From positions 952,059-1,016,058 of the forward strand of contig NZ_JALIQP010000001.1 in assembly GCF_023566055.1 (NCBI RefSeq): 64,000 nt of DNA. Direction: 5' to 3'. Both the position numbers and the translations under genes were made by a program. This document shows, in pieces, positions 4,364-11,341 of the stretch; within the stretch, counting starts at the first letter, position 1, and each line of letters starts with the position of its first letter. Below the pieces are notes generated by a model. It made no database searches. It had not been told where the DNA came from and saw only the letters and a program-made list of their open reading frames with translations. Source of the DNA: Halosolutus amylolyticus. GTDB taxonomy: Archaea > Halobacteriota > Halobacteria > Halobacteriales > Natrialbaceae.

Positions 4364-6352
4364 TCACAATTCGGTCGTTTTTATCTCCTTGCTCCACCGC
4401 AGTTCACTGTCCAAGAGGACCGGGAAATCACCGCTCTCAAGGAAGTCTACGAGTTGACGTTTCGTGACGGGAGTTTCTCCAGCGTTGCCCGGAAATAGAT
4501 GATACGCGTCGACCGGTTCGATGCGAGGGCGGTGTATCCCACCGAGGGTGGATAGCTCCGTTATGTATGTGTGGCAGTCGATCGTTCTCTTACCTAATTT
4601 TCGTTTGATGATTCCCAGCAATGGTGATCCGGATTCTGGTTGTGAAACTGTTGTTTTCCCTGCCCCGATAATTTGATACTGCTGTCCACCAGTGCGGACC
4701 GTTCGTGTGATATCCATTGTCGCATACATCGGAAAGCCGTGACTCAGGAGTTGAGCAACGATACTCCCCACCTCGACAGCCTCCCGATTTTTCACATCAT
4801 CGAGCGTTACGATCCCTGCCTGGCTACCCAATTCGATGAGTTGGCGGCCTTGACGATAGGATTGACATGCGTTGAGGAAGAAAGCTGTCGCGCCAACGGT
4901 ATCGATCTTCGATGCGTCTATCTTTCCATTTGAACACCGAAAGCCCTCTCGATCGATGTGCCCGATATAGTGAAGGAAGTCGCTGTTTTTCGCCAGAATA
5001 TCTCCGAATTCGTCCTTCGTCAGGTTGTGATGGAGCGTAACCTCTAACGGGAACCGATCTCGTTCTTCGTATTTGCTGTGTACGCTCACGAATTCGCTGT
5101 TCATTTTTGGATCGTTACAAACGACCTCTATTTTGATCGGCCCCGATCGGGGAGATCGGTCGAGGCTGTGTCGGAATGCCGATAACGGCGACCGACCCAT
5201 AACCGTTGAGGACCTGACCGTGTTCCAGCGTTGATGAGCAGTCGCGCGAGTTTCCTCGTGCAAAACGTGGGAAGCAGATTTGTTCGAGAAGGTGTCGTCT
5301 TGGGTGGTATAAATCACCGATAGTTCTTCGACGAGGTGGGGAAGAAATTTCACGTTCTTCTCATTTTCTTCCAGTTTAGTTGTAACAGGCCAGGTTGGGA
5401 GATACGACATGACCGTCTCGAACGGTTCTTTGAGGTAGATCTCTGTTCGAGAGGCCAGTGATTCATTATATGTTTCCTCGATATCAAATTCGAGGTGTGG
5501 TTCCACAACCTGTCGCTCGTACAATGGTCCTGGACCTTCGCCCTCGGTTCGAACGATACAATCCAAGAAAAACACCTGTCTCAGTACCCGTTCGACTGTT
5601 GATTCGAATTCGTCCCCATTCCCGAGTCGGAACGAATATCCTGTTGGCGTTCTGAGTAGGGGTTCTGCTCCGGGAACCACTTTCGCCCCGAGATAGTATG
5701 CAAGCGGCGCAACGACGAGTACGTGCCTGACATCTGACGGTATCTCGATCGTGATGCCCGTTTCCGGACGCTCGAATTGATCCGGAATATTTAGTTTGTT
5801 GCCGAGTTCGATAATCGGTGGATGGCCCCTGAGCGTGGCGTACGATCGTTCGACTGACGTCGTTTTAAGTGCGGAACTGAATAACGATACTGCCTTCATC
5901 AAATCTGATGGATCCGTCGTGGTTTTGATCGTCCCTGCTGGGTTCGTATGAAACGATCGGGCACCGATAACTACCTCGGTAGCACTTCCGAACGAGATTT
6001 CGCTGTCTTCGCTTCCAAAGTCAATATCCATAGAACTATCGACAGCAAAGTACACCTTCATCCCTGAAGAAATGTCCAGAACGTATCTATCGTCGGGGAG
6101 GGAGAGTGATTGGTTTGGGTTTACTTCCGCAATTAATACCCCCTCATCGTTGTGTACGTAGATCGACTCCTTCGTCAGTACCGTCAATGAGTTCGTAATA
6201 ATCTGTCTCGTTGTATCCACTGGATACGGTATCTTACGGCCCCTGGACGGTACAGGTTCTACCTTTTTTGGTGTCAGGAGTCGTTGTCTGATCCGTTCGA
6301 TCGGATCGATAATTTCTAACCCATCTGAAGTATTTTCAATCGTGGCCTTCAT
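4364..6352 (-). CDS. CHAT-type caspase-like protein, copy 1
   Basis: 662 residues. The C-terminal part (about 405-560) has the layout of a caspase-fold CHAT peptidase: a hydrophobic strand ending in the HYIGHID motif (His461, His465) and a second strand ending in FLNACQS (Cys496), giving a His/Cys dyad. The first ~340 residues form a separate domain I do not recognise, opening with a GLEIIDPIER motif that copy 2 at 7348-9453 shares position for position. No signal peptide or membrane segment is evident, so it is probably cytoplasmic. It is divergent from the HalX regulator gene (154-base gap). Codon use is visibly AT-richer than that of the adjacent ribosomal genes, suggesting transfer. CHAT proteases elsewhere act in programmed death and defence; here the role is inference and the substrate unknown. 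Confidence 0.72.
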   Translation of the reverse strand: MKATIENTSDGLEIIDPIERIRQRLLTPKKVEPVPSRGRKIPYPVDTTRQIITNSLTVLTKESIYVHNDEGVLIAEVNPNQSLSLPDDRYVLDISSGMKVYFAVDSSMDIDFGSEDSEISFGSATEVVIGARSFHTNPAGTIKTTTDPSDLMKAVSLFSSALKTTSVERSYATLRGHPPIIELGNKLNIPDQFERPETGITIEIPSDVRHVLVVAPLAYYLGAKVVPGAEPLLRTPTGYSFRLGNGDEFESTVERVLRQVFFLDCIVRTEGEGPGPLYERQVVEPHLEFDIEETYNESLASRTEIYLKEPFETVMSYLPTWPVTTKLEENEKNVKFLPHLVEELSVIYTTQDDTFSNKSASHVLHEETRATAHQRWNTVRSSTVMGRSPLSAFRHSLDRSPRSGPIKIEVVCNDPKMNSEFVSVHSKYEERDRFPLEVTLHHNLTKDEFGDILAKNSDFLHYIGHIDREGFRCSNGKIDASKIDTVGATAFFLNACQSYRQGRQLIELGSQAGIVTLDDVKNREAVEVGSIVAQLLSHGFPMYATMDITRTVRTGGQQYQIIGAGKTTVSQPESGSPLLGIIKRKLGKRTIDCHTYITELSTLGGIHRPRIEPVDAYHLFPGNAGETPVTKRQLVDFLESGDFPVLLDSELRWSKEIKTTEL

Positions 6353-6476: not shown

Positions 6477-6506
6477 AGCACCTGCCGACCAGTACTGGTA
6501 CGAGAC

Positions 6507-7076
6507 GTGGTGCTGGAATCTACTATCCATCTATTCGTCGTCCATCCGGACTTGACACTTGAGGATCCAGATGTGCTCGATCGTCGTATGGATTTCGAAA
6601 TTTCCGACGCTGAGTTCGACAAATCGATCCTAGACCAGATCGACGAGAGTTACGATGTCGTACTCCTTGATTGGAATCTCGAGATACCCGATGCACGTGG
6701 TGTACTGGATATCGTTCGACAACGTACTCCCGACACACGGATTCTTGCATTGATGTCGGACGTCCCCTCAGAAGACCCGATCGATCGCGGTGCCGACGAA
6801 TTCCTTGTCCAGCCGGTCTCGGACGAAACGCTATACAGGACGATCGAGCGACTGGCTCTGGAAAAGGAATACGAGGAATCGATGAACGAACTCTTCCGAC
6901 TGGCGACCGAGCGAGCCCTGCTCCAGACGGAGCGAGATTCGGACGCCGACGTAACCGATCAGTACGTGTCCGTTACTCAGGAACTGCAGGAGTGTAGAGA
7001 CCGTGCAGCATCGATCCGGGAGGAACTCTCGCTTGAGGAGTTCGATCGGGCACTGCGCCAACTGCTCGACGAGTGA
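6507..7076 (+). CDS. HalX-domain response regulator with degenerate receiver
   Basis: 189 residues from the GTG at 6507 (a second GTG follows at 6510). Residues 5-115 resemble a receiver domain and keep the phospho-acceptor aspartate (Asp55 in VVLLDWNL). The usual N-terminal acidic pair is replaced by His13-Pro14 and the usual lysine of the YLVKP motif is Gln102. Residues ~120-189 are the helical HalX domain (MNELFRLATERALLQTE, then a charged coiled segment). HalX is a haloarchaeal output domain that normally follows a receiver; no DNA-binding domain is visible. It lies between two CHAT-type genes and just before the microprotein gene, so it is a candidate signalling part of that locus. The loss of pocket residues suggests phosphorylation-independent action. 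Confidence 0.75.
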   Translation: MVLESTIHLFVVHPDLTLEDPDVLDRRMDFEISDAEFDKSILDQIDESYDVVLLDWNLEIPDARGVLDIVRQRTPDTRILALMSDVPSEDPIDRGADEFLVQPVSDETLYRTIERLALEKEYEESMNELFRLATERALLQTERDSDADVTDQYVSVTQELQECRDRAASIREELSLEEFDRALRQLLDE

Positions 7077-7179
7077 AAGGCCGTAATTTACGAATTCCCT
7101 TTCTGAGGTCTGGATTTCCGTGTCTAAGGGGCTGTTCTATTATCTCATACGTTTCGATCGGTTAACACACGGAATAATA

Positions 7180-7215
7180 CTATTATTGCTATATATGATA
7201 TATTAAAATAAATTG
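7180..7215 (+). promoter_or_regulatory. AT-rich promoter region of the microprotein gene
   Basis: Almost purely A/T stretch containing TATATATGATATATTAAA, ending about 33 bases before the ATG at 7248. It is among the most AT-rich non-coding DNA in the window, and the nearest gene it can serve is the 41-residue microprotein. Confidence 0.4.
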
Positions 7216-7247
7216 ATTACGGGCGCGTTCCATGGGTAGAACGTACC

Positions 7248-7373
7248 ATGACGGACTTAACTCAGTACCTGAAGAATCACCCGCGAATGATCGGTGTGCT
7301 GTTCACCATGATGTTAGTCTTGTCCCAGGCAGGGACTGTTGCAGCAATTAATAGTTCTTATCACGGTCCCTAA
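7248..7373 (+). CDS. 41-residue hydrophobic microprotein (DUF7503-like)
   Basis: Short gene with an ATG at 7248 and TAA at 7371-7373. Residues 1-12 are polar (MTDLTQYLKNHP), residues 14-34 are one hydrophobic segment (IGVLFTMMLVLSQAG core) and a short GP tail ends it. The NHPRMIGVLFTM...LSQAG pattern is one I associate with a recurrent ~40-residue haloarchaeal family often left unannotated (DUF7503, from memory). The polar start argues against a signal peptide; a single-span membrane peptide is more likely. Its last 26 bases overlap, in the opposite orientation, the 3' end of the second CHAT-type gene. Function unknown; position suggests a partner or target of the CHAT/HalX genes. Confidence 0.7.
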   Translation: MTDLTQYLKNHPRMIGVLFTMMLVLSQAGTVAAINSSYHGP

Positions 7374-9453
7374 TCGATTCAACTGTTTTTATAAACATAT
7401 CGCTCCAGATCATTTCGCCATTATACACGACAGGTACATCATCGACAGATAATAAATCAAGTACTTGACTAGTTGCAATAGAGAGGTTTTTTGTATTACC
7501 CGGGTTTATATAATGTGTGTTTATTGACTCTATATGTGGTACGAACACTCCTCCCTTTCCAGAACTAGGTGTAAGGTACGTATCCATTTCGACTTTCCAC
7601 ATGTTATTCTCCCGAGAAACTAAACAAATCGCTGGTTCTCCCCTTCTTGATTGGGCTATCCTTGTAGCCCCACTGCCTACAATGTGATATTGTTCCGCCA
7701 TCACGTTCTTCCTCCGAGCAATATCTAAAGATGCATAAATAGGAAACCCTTGATTTAACAGCCGTGCGATTGTCTTGCCGACACTAATGGCCCCGCTATT
7801 AACAACATCAGTGAGTGTTACGATTCCTCCGATACTCCCTTTTTCTATAAGGGTTAGCCCCTGATCATGTGATTGGCATGCGTTGAGTAAGAACGCTTTT
7901 AGGCCGACGCTGTCGAGTGATTTGGCGTCGAACTTTCCGTTCGAACACTGAAATCCATCTGTGTCGATGTGGCCGATGTAGTGGCAAAAATCGCTCTCCT
8001 GGGTGAGAATCCGTTCAAATGCGTTCTTCGTTAGATTGTGATGAATAGTCACATCAAACGGAAGTTCTTTGTGATTACCATAGAATTTGTTTACCGTCTC
8101 GAGTTCTTCGTTCATCTTCGAGTCGTTACAGACCACATCGATCGAGATGGGATCGTCTTTCGGCGTTCGCCCGATATCGTTCTGGAATGCTGTCAAGGGA
8201 GTCGTACTCGAGATCGGTGACGAATTCGTTCCGTTCCACCGCTGTTGCACCGTTGAAGTTTCCGATCCCCCGTGAGGGTGGGCTAGTGTGTCTGTTCCTC
8301 TGGTCGAGTGGCGAGTTTGACTCCCACTACCTCGTGTAAACGCTTCGATCGCCTGATTCTGGGCCTCGACCCGTGGCTTCTTGTCCCGAGTTTCGTCTCT
8401 CCCGTCCAGTTTTACGATCGAGAGATCGTCAGCGATGAACGGAAGAAATTCGATCGTTTCGCTCGGGGAATCGACCCGCGTCTCGAGTTGCCACTTCGGA
8501 AGGTGTGGTTCTAGGGAGGACACAGGTTCGTCGAGATACATCGCAACCTGTTCCGAAAGCGACTTCTCGTACGCAATTCCGGGGTCGAAGTCGAGAATCG
8601 GTTCGACGGCTTCCCGTTCATGGAGGGACAGCGGCGTCATCCCCTCGGTTCGAACGATGCAATCAAGCAAGAACAGTTGCTTGAGCGTTCGTTCTACGGT
8701 TGATTCGAATTTACCATCGGTCTTGAGCGAATGCGTGTACCCCGTTTCGGTGATGAGCTTCGGCTCCGGGCCGGGCGTGACGGTCGCTCCGAGATAGTAT
8801 GCGAGTGGAGTAACGACGAACACGTAGCCCAGTTCCGGTGGTACTTCGATACGAATCCCCGTCTGTGGCCGGTCTATCGTAGCAGGAATGTGCAATTCCT
8901 CTCCCTGTTCGAGTTTCGGCGGATGTCCTCGAAGCGTCGGGTACGATCGCTCCGGCGTCGTCGTTTTGAGAGCCGATCCGAACGCAGACACTGCTTTCAT
9001 TACGTCCGTGGGCTCTCTCGTCGTGGTAATCGTCTCCGCAGGGCGCGTGTGATACGATCGGGCACCGATGATCGCGTGGGTCCGATCTTCGAAGGAGATG
9101 TACGTTCGATTGGTATCGGAATAGATGTGAAGTCCGCACGTTATATTCACATACACTTTCATCGAGGCGGAAAGGTCGAGCGTATATTCCCCCTGACGAA
9201 ACGATCGCTGTTCGTTAGGTTGGACTTCGCCAACCATGGATCCGTCCGCGCTGCGAATATAGATGGTCTCCTTCGTCGATAGCGTGAGCATTTCCGTCGT
9301 AATTCCGACCGCTGCATCGATCGGATACTGGATTCGATCGCAATCGACAGCAGTCGGTGTCACCGGCTCGTGGGTCGTGAGCCGGTACCGGTGGCGTTCG
9401 ATCGGGTCGATAATTTCGAGGCCGTCCTCGATCGGTTCGAATTTCGGGTTCAT
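7348..9453 (-). CDS. CHAT-type caspase-like protein, copy 2
   Basis: 701 residues, paralogue of the protein at 4364-6352. The start is the ATG at 9453 because it aligns with copy 1 from residue 10 (GLEIIDPIER) onward; an upstream in-frame ATG at 9579 would add 42 residues that copy 1 lacks. Catalytic-type motifs are HYIGHID (His491, His495) and FLLNACQS (Cys526), as in copy 1. The first ~340 residues align without gaps; then copy 2 has roughly 30 extra residues in a low-complexity linker (350-410). It lies 85 bases downstream of, and in the same direction as, the DUF7504-like gene, so they may share a transcript. The 3' end overlaps the microprotein gene. Confidence 0.72.
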   Translation of the reverse strand: MNPKFEPIEDGLEIIDPIERHRYRLTTHEPVTPTAVDCDRIQYPIDAAVGITTEMLTLSTKETIYIRSADGSMVGEVQPNEQRSFRQGEYTLDLSASMKVYVNITCGLHIYSDTNRTYISFEDRTHAIIGARSYHTRPAETITTTREPTDVMKAVSAFGSALKTTTPERSYPTLRGHPPKLEQGEELHIPATIDRPQTGIRIEVPPELGYVFVVTPLAYYLGATVTPGPEPKLITETGYTHSLKTDGKFESTVERTLKQLFLLDCIVRTEGMTPLSLHEREAVEPILDFDPGIAYEKSLSEQVAMYLDEPVSSLEPHLPKWQLETRVDSPSETIEFLPFIADDLSIVKLDGRDETRDKKPRVEAQNQAIEAFTRGSGSQTRHSTRGTDTLAHPHGGSETSTVQQRWNGTNSSPISSTTPLTAFQNDIGRTPKDDPISIDVVCNDSKMNEELETVNKFYGNHKELPFDVTIHHNLTKNAFERILTQESDFCHYIGHIDTDGFQCSNGKFDAKSLDSVGLKAFLLNACQSHDQGLTLIEKGSIGGIVTLTDVVNSGAISVGKTIARLLNQGFPIYASLDIARRKNVMAEQYHIVGSGATRIAQSRRGEPAICLVSRENNMWKVEMDTYLTPSSGKGGVFVPHIESINTHYINPGNTKNLSIATSQVLDLLSVDDVPVVYNGEMIWSDMFIKTVESIRDRDKNY

Positions 9454-10359: not shown

Positions 10360-11115
10360 CTAATCGGCCGCGGACTCCACACCGCCGACGTAGGATCGGG
10401 TCGCCTCGACGAGCACCTGCCGGTAGCTGCTCGTGTCGGGGTCGCGCGCGAGTTCCCGGAAGCGGCGGTTGAACTCCCCGAACGGGACCTCCGGAGCGTC
10501 CATCGCGGCCGCGTGTGCGATGTCGTACAGTCGGTGGCCGTCGTCGACGAGGTCGTGACGTTCCGCGAGTGCCAGCGCGAACGCCGCGTTGACGGCCGTA
10601 ATCTCGGGATCGGCACCCGGGGAGATCCGTTCGAGGCCCGGCCGCGGCGGCGTTCCGGGCCGATCGGCGACGGCCGCCGCGAGACTCGATTCGAGAAAGG
10701 AGAGGAGCTTCTTTCCGGGGCCCACCGAGAGGGTGATGTCGTCGGCGTAGATGTCTTTCATGTGGTTGGCGATCTGGTAGCAGTGGGTGAGCTTTCGCCG
10801 TTCGACGGATTTGCCGGCGAGCGCGAGATAGAGGACCTCTTCGGTCGACTGGGTGTGGGAGGGATGTTCCTGTTCGTACCTGGCCATGTGGGCGAACTCG
10901 TGGAGGACGAGTTCCGGGGCCATCGCGGAGGAGGCGGCCTGCCGCGAGATGTTCAGGACGTGGTGGTCGTCGTAGTGGCCGGCCCAGGTGCGTTCGTCGG
11001 GGTCGTCCCGCAACTGGATCTCGACCGGGAGCGTCAGATCGTGTTCGGTTTCGAATCGGTCCCGGGCGCTGAGAAACGGCGCGGTCGGGCCCGGTCCCTG
11101 GACGTGGACATCCAT
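10360..11115 (-). CDS. DUF5781 family putative metalloprotein
   Basis: 251 residues from the ATG at 11115. The motif HEFAH (His72, Glu73, His76) followed by MARYEQEH is a zincin-type HExxH site, so a metal-dependent peptidase-like fold is likely. The rest is mostly helical. It matches a haloarchaeal family I know as DUF5781, with no established function. Divergent from the EF-2 gene with 226 bases between the start codons. An in-frame upstream ATG at 11238 is less likely because the extra 41 residues are basic and unlike haloarchaeal coding sequence. Confidence 0.72.
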   Translation of the reverse strand: MDVHVQGPGPTAPFLSARDRFETEHDLTLPVEIQLRDDPDERTWAGHYDDHHVLNISRQAASSAMAPELVLHEFAHMARYEQEHPSHTQSTEEVLYLALAGKSVERRKLTHCYQIANHMKDIYADDITLSVGPGKKLLSFLESSLAAAVADRPGTPPRPGLERISPGADPEITAVNAAFALALAERHDLVDDGHRLYDIAHAAAMDAPEVPFGEFNRRFRELARDPDTSSYRQVLVEATRSYVGGVESAAD

Positions 11116-11341
11116 GCGTACCAATACCAAGTTCCCTCGAAGTATGTCTCTTACGCCCGGTATCGGTGGCCGCAACTGGCCCGGCGAGCCGTCGCCTATC
11201 GGACCCCGTCGAGAACCGTCTCGGTGCGTGGCATTCACTCACGTAAACTGGACATTCCGACGCCCCAACGGGGAAATTCGCTGAATTCGACCGGAGACGA
11301 AACACTACCCTTTTGACCCCGCTACCGGTATTGGGGGGTAT

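Follow-up and report, generated by a model that had tools for sequence, protein, structure and literature searches.

Gly-Pro-ending DUF7503 micropeptides and the predicted caspase-like CHAT proteases encoded convergently with them in haloarchaea

The peptide gene and the CHAT genes of the window

The window analysed here (the whole 64,000-nucleotide stretch of Halosolutus amylolyticus DNA) contains a short ORF that runs from ATG to TAA and encodes the 41-residue peptide MTDLTQYLKNHPRMIGVLFTMMLVLSQAGTVAAINSSYHGP; the features at this locus are listed in Table 1. The original prediction had proposed a real but unannotated gene with a clean start and stop. The ORF is indeed a genuine gene: its product matches the Pfam family DUF7503 (PF24335) over the full length, with residues 1-41 aligning to positions 1-42 of the 42-position profile (78 bits at a cut-off of 27, E = 4e-22), and across 281 pairs of relatives pN/pS is 0.30 overall, 0.27 in the core and 0.37 in the last nine residues. 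A chance ORF was rejected on conservation, codon pattern and pN/pS. The word 'unannotated' has to be corrected in part, as a family already exists; what stands is that its function is not described, and the DUF7503 record contains no CHAT partnership, Gly-Pro rule or array forms. The genome of the window has one DUF7503 copy; a pair of DUF7503 genes in direct tandem is found at G012:C1:486534-486796.

Table 1 Features at the peptide/CHAT locus, in window coordinates
Feature	Position	Strand	Basis or remark
CHAT copy 1, 662 aa, with 45% identity to copy 2	4364..6352	-	no DUF7503 peptide at its own 3' end
Response-regulator receiver/HalX protein, upstream of the peptide gene	about 6501..7076	+	PF08663, E = 5.9e-5; start approximate
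Promoter region of the peptide gene, AT-rich with TATA-like sequence; start of leaderless type	7170..7217	+	sequence and family-wide A+T peak
DUF7503 peptide gene, 41 aa	7248..7373	+	PF24335, 78 bits vs 27; pN/pS 0.30
Hydrophobic core HPRMIGVLFTMMLVLSQAGTVAA, residues 11-33, signal-peptide/anchor-like, ends in (-3,-1)-type VAA site	7278..7346	+	column statistics
C-terminal tail INSSYHGP, putative released 8-mer with near-invariant Gly-Pro end	7347..7370	+	GP in 139/145; tail of 7-10 residues
Antisense overlap between the ends of both coding regions, 26 bp	7348..7373	.	ORF coordinates
CHAT copy 2, 701 aa, predicted caspase-like cysteine protease fold, convergent with the peptide gene	7348..9453	-	alignment A1, AlphaFold, structure comparison

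The AT-rich promoter region postulated earlier is of the haloarchaeal type and common to the family: among 145 distinct peptide genes, the mean A+T content is 0.89 at positions -40 to -31, and 95 of these genes have a TATA-like 8-mer (7/8 or better). Shine-Dalgarno-like motifs are rare (only 12/145), fitting a leaderless message.

The gene that faces the peptide gene, CHAT copy 2, is a minus-strand ORF with its ATG at 9453 and its end, stop codon included, at 7348, in agreement with the original prediction that the last 26 bases of the peptide gene are antisense to the CHAT coding end. In the AlphaFold model of the protein (pLDDT 87.3, pTM 0.87), residues of about 320-603 match SAVED-CHAT, gingipains, separase, Craspase and caspases (Foldseek, VIA-align); structure comparison gave Z 19.1 for SAVED-CHAT (rmsd 2.4 over 169), 18.1 for RgpB, 16.5 for separase and 14.2 for Craspase. 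His491/His495 and Cys526 are invariant in alignment A1 (n = 36), and the His/Cys dyad is intact in 163/163 CHAT ORFs, these being 167 candidates minus 4 that look like antisense frames. From the model, the CHAT protein is a predicted protease of the caspase/separase fold.

The Pfam CHAT profile (PF12770) matches 7/36 A1 members at E <= 0.1 (best 6.5e-5) and gives no match in the CHAT copies of the window. A sequence search of the PDB with CHAT gave no match, and PADLOC defence models gave no identification (1/36 CHAT proteins at E 0.06). The N-terminal 330 residues contain many invariant charged residues, and invariant positions in this part include R132, H135, E168, R169, R175, H177, D264 and R268; modelled alone, the N-terminal part matched no solved fold at E <= 0.001 in one fold search. 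No regulator domain was found in the CHAT partner by Pfam and structure comparison, and no CRISPR or cyclic-nucleotide module was noticed. Tandem CHAT copies of the kind seen in the window also occur at L078, L079 and L084.

Pairing and distribution of the two genes

The original prediction had staked a functional tie of the peptide to its neighbours on homologues lying next to CHAT or HalX genes. For CHAT, this tie holds in three surveys. At 61 loci (60 regions and the window), picked for genus spread from the strongest 150 peptide matches and not at random, a CHAT-like ORF lies downstream on the opposite strand in 61/61; exceptions concern only the spacing (the CHAT gene is about 1 kb away behind another ORF at L058 and at 155 bp at L075), and the CHAT ORF of L078 is split over two frames. 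Viewed from the CHAT gene, a convergent DUF7503 gene (E <= 0.005) is present at 75 of the 80 named loci that rank best among 462 CHAT places, with stop-to-stop distances of -17 to +126 bp; the remaining five have GP-ending substitutes (L132, L164, L165, L174) or a run of N (L125). Finally, 25 genomes chosen mostly for having several copies contain 85 peptide matches, of which 84 have a convergent CHAT match no more than 500 nt away; for the remaining one, the distance is at most 871 nt. Thus, the pair multiplies as a unit. HalX in contrast is only weakly tied: response-regulator/HalX neighbours are present in 14/61 loci, and a reading of the locus as a HalX module was rejected for this reason.

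Beside 60/66 CHAT genes of these loci, but beside 0/456 other genes, there is a GP-ending ORF (25 residues or longer) in convergent orientation within -60 to +200 bp; among the control ORFs, 0/737 end in GP, with about 4 expected. The pair is class-wide and, for the peptide, near-obligate. The reverse is not the case: 142 CHAT ORFs have a GP-ending convergent ORF and 39 have none, the latter including tandem second copies, C-terminal variants, a masked locus and members of another clade. In the multi-copy genomes, 30 of the 114 strong CHAT matches listed, plus weaker ones, have no detected DUF7503 partner, indicating that the protease can do without the peptide. The second CHAT clade (HxxGHC ... 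NACGS motifs; L190-L205) is mostly without a GP-ending peptide gene: no GP-ending DUF7503-like ORF was found at most of the other-clade loci (L188-L193, L195-L205 and others). GP-ending ORFs are present at the other-clade loci L206, L209-L211 and L214, and these may be chance or real. Four genomes (G274, G256, G346, G326) have 10-13 CHAT-family matches each, far above their peptide count, a pattern that we read from the sequences as a lineage-specific expansion of caspase-like proteins.

Of 391 genomes of the class Halobacteria, 334 have DUF7503 over the cut-off and 365 match CHAT profile A1 at E <= 1e-30; at E <= 0.01, DUF7503 matches are found in 74/86 genera. The 26 CHAT-negative genomes have no DUF7503 over the cut-off, the sole trace being one match at E 0.009 (G001); the two lists were compared by eye, with six unlisted negatives identified by elimination. 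Among 148 genomes sampled from the phylum there are 18 DUF7503 matches, all within the window's order or nearer, and none outside this order. Nearly all haloarchaea thus have a predicted gene for a peptide of about 45 residues that ends in Gly-Pro, convergent with the gene for a putative caspase-like protease. Among haloarchaeal plasmids, 25 records carry CHAT and 12 the peptide. A virus-borne origin was rejected, as neither CHAT (in IMG/VR searched by pattern plus tblastn) nor the peptide matched in phage records or IMG/VR.

The Gly-Pro tail, the loss of the core and the Haloplanus arrays

Column statistics over the 145 peptide genes reveal a strongly kept core motif, HPRM.GVLFT..LLLSQAG: P12 is invariant and G16, L18, F19, Q27 and G29 are each conserved in at least 97%, which bears out the core that had merely looked conserved in the single sequence. 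The core of the window peptide has a mean hydropathy of 1.79 over 19 residues, and 98/145 peptides reach 1.6 or more. The hydrophobic segment proposed originally is thus present; the designation as membrane peptide is less certain, since the segment resembles a signal peptide as much as a membrane anchor. The (-3,-1) rule of signal peptidases is obeyed by the putative site before the tail in 145/145 peptides (-3: V80, A59, T3, G2, S1; -1: A136, G9).

The tail that follows the putative site has 7 (5 peptides), 8 (45), 9 (91) or 10 (4) residues, contains a charged residue in only 16/145 cases and terminates with Gly-Pro-stop in 139/145. All 145 canonical genes share the pattern of a putative secretory N-terminus and a short C-terminal peptide, whereas the array forms described below have no secretory segment. 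The terminal Gly-Pro is encoded by all four Gly codons (GGC 46, GGT 40, GGA 33, GGG 20) and all four Pro codons (CCG 73, CCC 39, CCT 16, CCA 11), indicating that selection acts on the amino acids; codon use and pN/pS show that the tail, as delimited here by the putative site, is under selection at the protein level. The six peptides without GP (L097, L100, L123, L160, L173, L175; ends GT (2), GL, IS, IR, TY) all adjoin a CHAT gene. Two of them, from Natronococcus (L173, L175), stop before the Gly-Pro with the ends AIR and TIS, and the CHAT gene there is intact.

In the genus of the Haloplanus ruber contig (g57; L174 and L180 give the same ORF), the canonical peptide is kept in two genomes (G335, G290), while six others (G080, G135, G173, G233, G240, G281) are DUF7503-negative with strong CHAT matches. 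At the DUF7503 position, these have array ORFs (L180-L185, L174, L132) with a similar start, for example MSESDSGTVA, and an end of ...GNGGGISGP or alike. The hydrophobic core is absent; instead, the tail recurs in units of 13 residues, with 13, 10, 7, 7, 5 and 4 units per array plus 2 in the MAG L132. The promoter is the same, and the CHAT proteins share 82-85% identity with their counterpart at L036, the canonical Haloplanus locus. In the 13 units of L180 the codon varies at 12/13 positions and the amino acid only at the first (spacer) position; as a terminal GP was already demanded by the pattern used to delimit the units, it is this synonymous drift and not the GP itself that counts as evidence. 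Asp precedes the conserved Gly-Asn in 47/48 units from seven loci, at a position where the canonical Haloplanus peptide has Ala (AAGNSGAISGP, L036). Caspases cleave after Asp, and the Asp-Gly of the units, at the ancestral Ala-Gly site, could be a boundary that a caspase-like enzyme cuts.

Arrays of near-identical 13-residue units are an unusual repeat-peptide precursor for archaea. Yeast alpha-factor is made from a repeat-peptide precursor, and the likeness lies in the several copies of a short peptide in a row with variable residues between them; the Haloplanus form differs in being archaeal and in having an array without a secretory leader.

Further substitutes occupy the same place. Two Halococcus loci (L164, L165) have a different ORF of 41 residues without a hydrophobic core that ends in CTYSGP; two g23 genomes have ORFs starting with MSLIETARRW... 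or MSLIATVRRW... and ending in PGP or SGP, the former not recognised in a Pfam scan; and G109 has a remote DUF7503 relative (E 0.007) with the end SPGP. Neither the array nor the Halococcus forms are recognised by the DUF7503 model. In Natrinema gelatinilyticum (L109, about 5584-5710) the core seems to be out of frame, and the start and the tail ...ANGGLFTGP are in frame. Taken together, these forms suggest that the tail, rather than the membrane segment, is the part to be kept, and the Haloplanus arrays are a natural experiment on which part of the microprotein matters.

Possible roles of the tail, related systems and further neighbours

Judging from these comparisons, the functional unit is probably the Gly-Pro tail, most likely as a ligand or a substrate of its CHAT protease, and the repetition of the tail in one genus suggests a working peptide signal or ligand. 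DUF7503 genes would then encode precursors of a mostly uncharged C-terminal peptide of 7-10 residues with a Gly-Pro end. The N-terminal segment of the canonical forms, similar to a signal peptide or anchor, would carry the tail to or through the membrane, where it would be released at the signal-peptidase-type site directly before it or stay displayed; as cognate ligand or substrate of the convergent CHAT protease, it would control this enzyme or be controlled by it. In Haloplanus, the delivery segment would have been lost and the tail turned into a polyprotein-like array. We give this full explanation (precursor, delivery segment and Gly-Pro tail as cognate CHAT ligand or substrate) an even chance; the parts of it that we infer are export and processing of the tail, its binding to CHAT, and which of the two partners controls the other. 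A CHAT cleavage substrate, one of the roles considered in the original prediction, is among the favoured readings. Class-wide archaeal peptide signalling, with DUF7503 precursors releasing a Gly-Pro oligopeptide that CHAT reads or makes and with multi-copy precursors in Haloplanus, is suggested here only tentatively.

Several points speak against a tail that acts as ligand or substrate after delivery to the membrane. CHAT looks cytosolic, whereas the canonical tail would lie outside if the positive-inside rule applies. The two forms, canonical and array, would then encounter the protease in different ways unless the peptide re-enters the cell. To reconcile them, the canonical peptide would have to return or remain inside, or else the arrays would need a separate exit route. 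Conservation of the hydrophobic core exceeds what a plain signal peptide would require. Moreover, the six non-GP peptides still lie beside CHAT, and many CHAT genes have no peptide.

The absence of a secretory segment from the array and core-less forms would be explained if the tail was never secreted but served inside the cell as a CHAT inhibitor or pseudo-substrate plug, antidote-like as securin is for separase, with arrays raising dose or avidity. The CHAT fold groups with that of separase, which has a dedicated inhibitor, and the pair duplicates as a unit; however, the canonical (-3,-1) site (145/145) and the conserved hydrophobic core point to the membrane and many CHAT genes are without a peptide, and we consider such an inhibitor unlikely. 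A small membrane toxin or pore former that is controlled or cut by the protease, like type I toxins or gasdermin, is in our view improbable: hydropathy of at least 1.6 in 98/145 peptides and the tail-to-tail overlap at some loci agree with it, but the six Haloplanus genomes (seven loci if the MAG L132 is counted) have lost the core, and the Halococcus substitute and some others lack it, each time with the GP tail kept. An invariant hydrophobic effector, as type I toxin-antitoxin systems have, is not found in Haloplanus and Halococcus, and the pore former or tether of the original prediction is disfavoured as the core function.

Control at the RNA level, with the overlapping 3' ends exerting antisense control on the CHAT message and the peptide as by-product, would draw on the convergent order and the near-abutting stops (median gap of 3 bp in 128 measured pairs, a number that reflects the limit of a strict filter for CHAT partners of the 145 genes and not a biological count, as the 17 misses include loci with a CHAT gene visible in the CHAT-centred survey). 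Coding overlap is atypical: it is present in only 22/128 pairs, gaps measure 51-130 bp in 34/128, and many pairs abut or lie 1-126 bp apart, so that antisense interference through this overlap, as first proposed, is not a general property. As selection acts on the amino acids and not on the bases (pN/pS 0.30, free Gly and Pro codons, synonymous drift in the arrays), we hold antisense control for very improbable. Ribosome arrest, known from SecM and TnaC, in which the Gly-Pro at the stop would stall the ribosome while the hydrophobic segment meets the translocon, fits the near-invariant GP directly before the stop and its fixed spacing to the conserved core, but is hardly probable either, given that there is no same-strand gene downstream for regulation in cis (this DNA is CHAT antisense in 61/61 loci, with an intervening ORF at L058) and that GP recurs inside the Haloplanus arrays, which have no core.

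By analogy, the group III Rgg/SHP systems of streptococci are a direct precedent for the anatomy of the pair, not for the enzyme. According to the accessible part of PMC3679016, their small pheromone gene is located downstream of the receptor gene, in convergent orientation, and likeness extends to the small hydrophobic precursor, the short C-terminal mature peptide, putative in DUF7503, and the position beside the gene of a cytosolic partner. The systems differ in that the Rgg/SHP receptor is an adjacent transcription regulator, whereas the DUF7503 partner has the CHAT fold of a predicted caspase-like protease, and in that mature SHP peptides begin with an acidic residue, whereas DUF7503 tails end in Gly-Pro. 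SAVED-CHAT, Craspase (Csx29/TPR-CHAT) and separase with securin share with the haloarchaeal CHAT protein the fold of the protease domain and the His/Cys dyad; here, the differences are an N-terminus that matches no solved fold at E <= 0.001 and a micropeptide as the partner. In the open-access literature, we found no paper on DUF7503, on the CHAT domain in haloarchaea or on peptide pheromone precursors of archaea or haloarchaea; judged by this literature and the DUF7503 record consulted, the pairing with CHAT, the conserved Gly-Pro end and the arrays appear to be new.

If the tail is a signal, haloarchaea would gain a peptide-based control of a caspase-fold protease, and the pair would represent a genetically encoded archaeal peptide signal wired to a caspase-fold enzyme. 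In extracts of Haloferax volcanii, according to the accessible part of PMC3615174, caspase-like activity is reported to dominate proteolysis, with homologues of caspase genes lacking. H. volcanii carries DUF7503, making its putative paired CHAT protease a candidate for this activity; the peptide/CHAT pair was also found in several other named Haloferax species.

Two further neighbours were observed. DUF7504 (PF24336), which directly follows DUF7503 in Pfam numbering, is encoded near CHAT in 28/61 loci, mostly just upstream on the CHAT strand (for example L084:3362-4087), and is possibly a third member of the system; after CHAT, it is the most frequent neighbour family, ahead of response-regulator/HalX. 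At 10360-11238 on the minus strand, the window encodes a DUF5781 protein (E 4.5e-131) that contains VLHEFAHM, which we take to be a zinc-protease-like motif.
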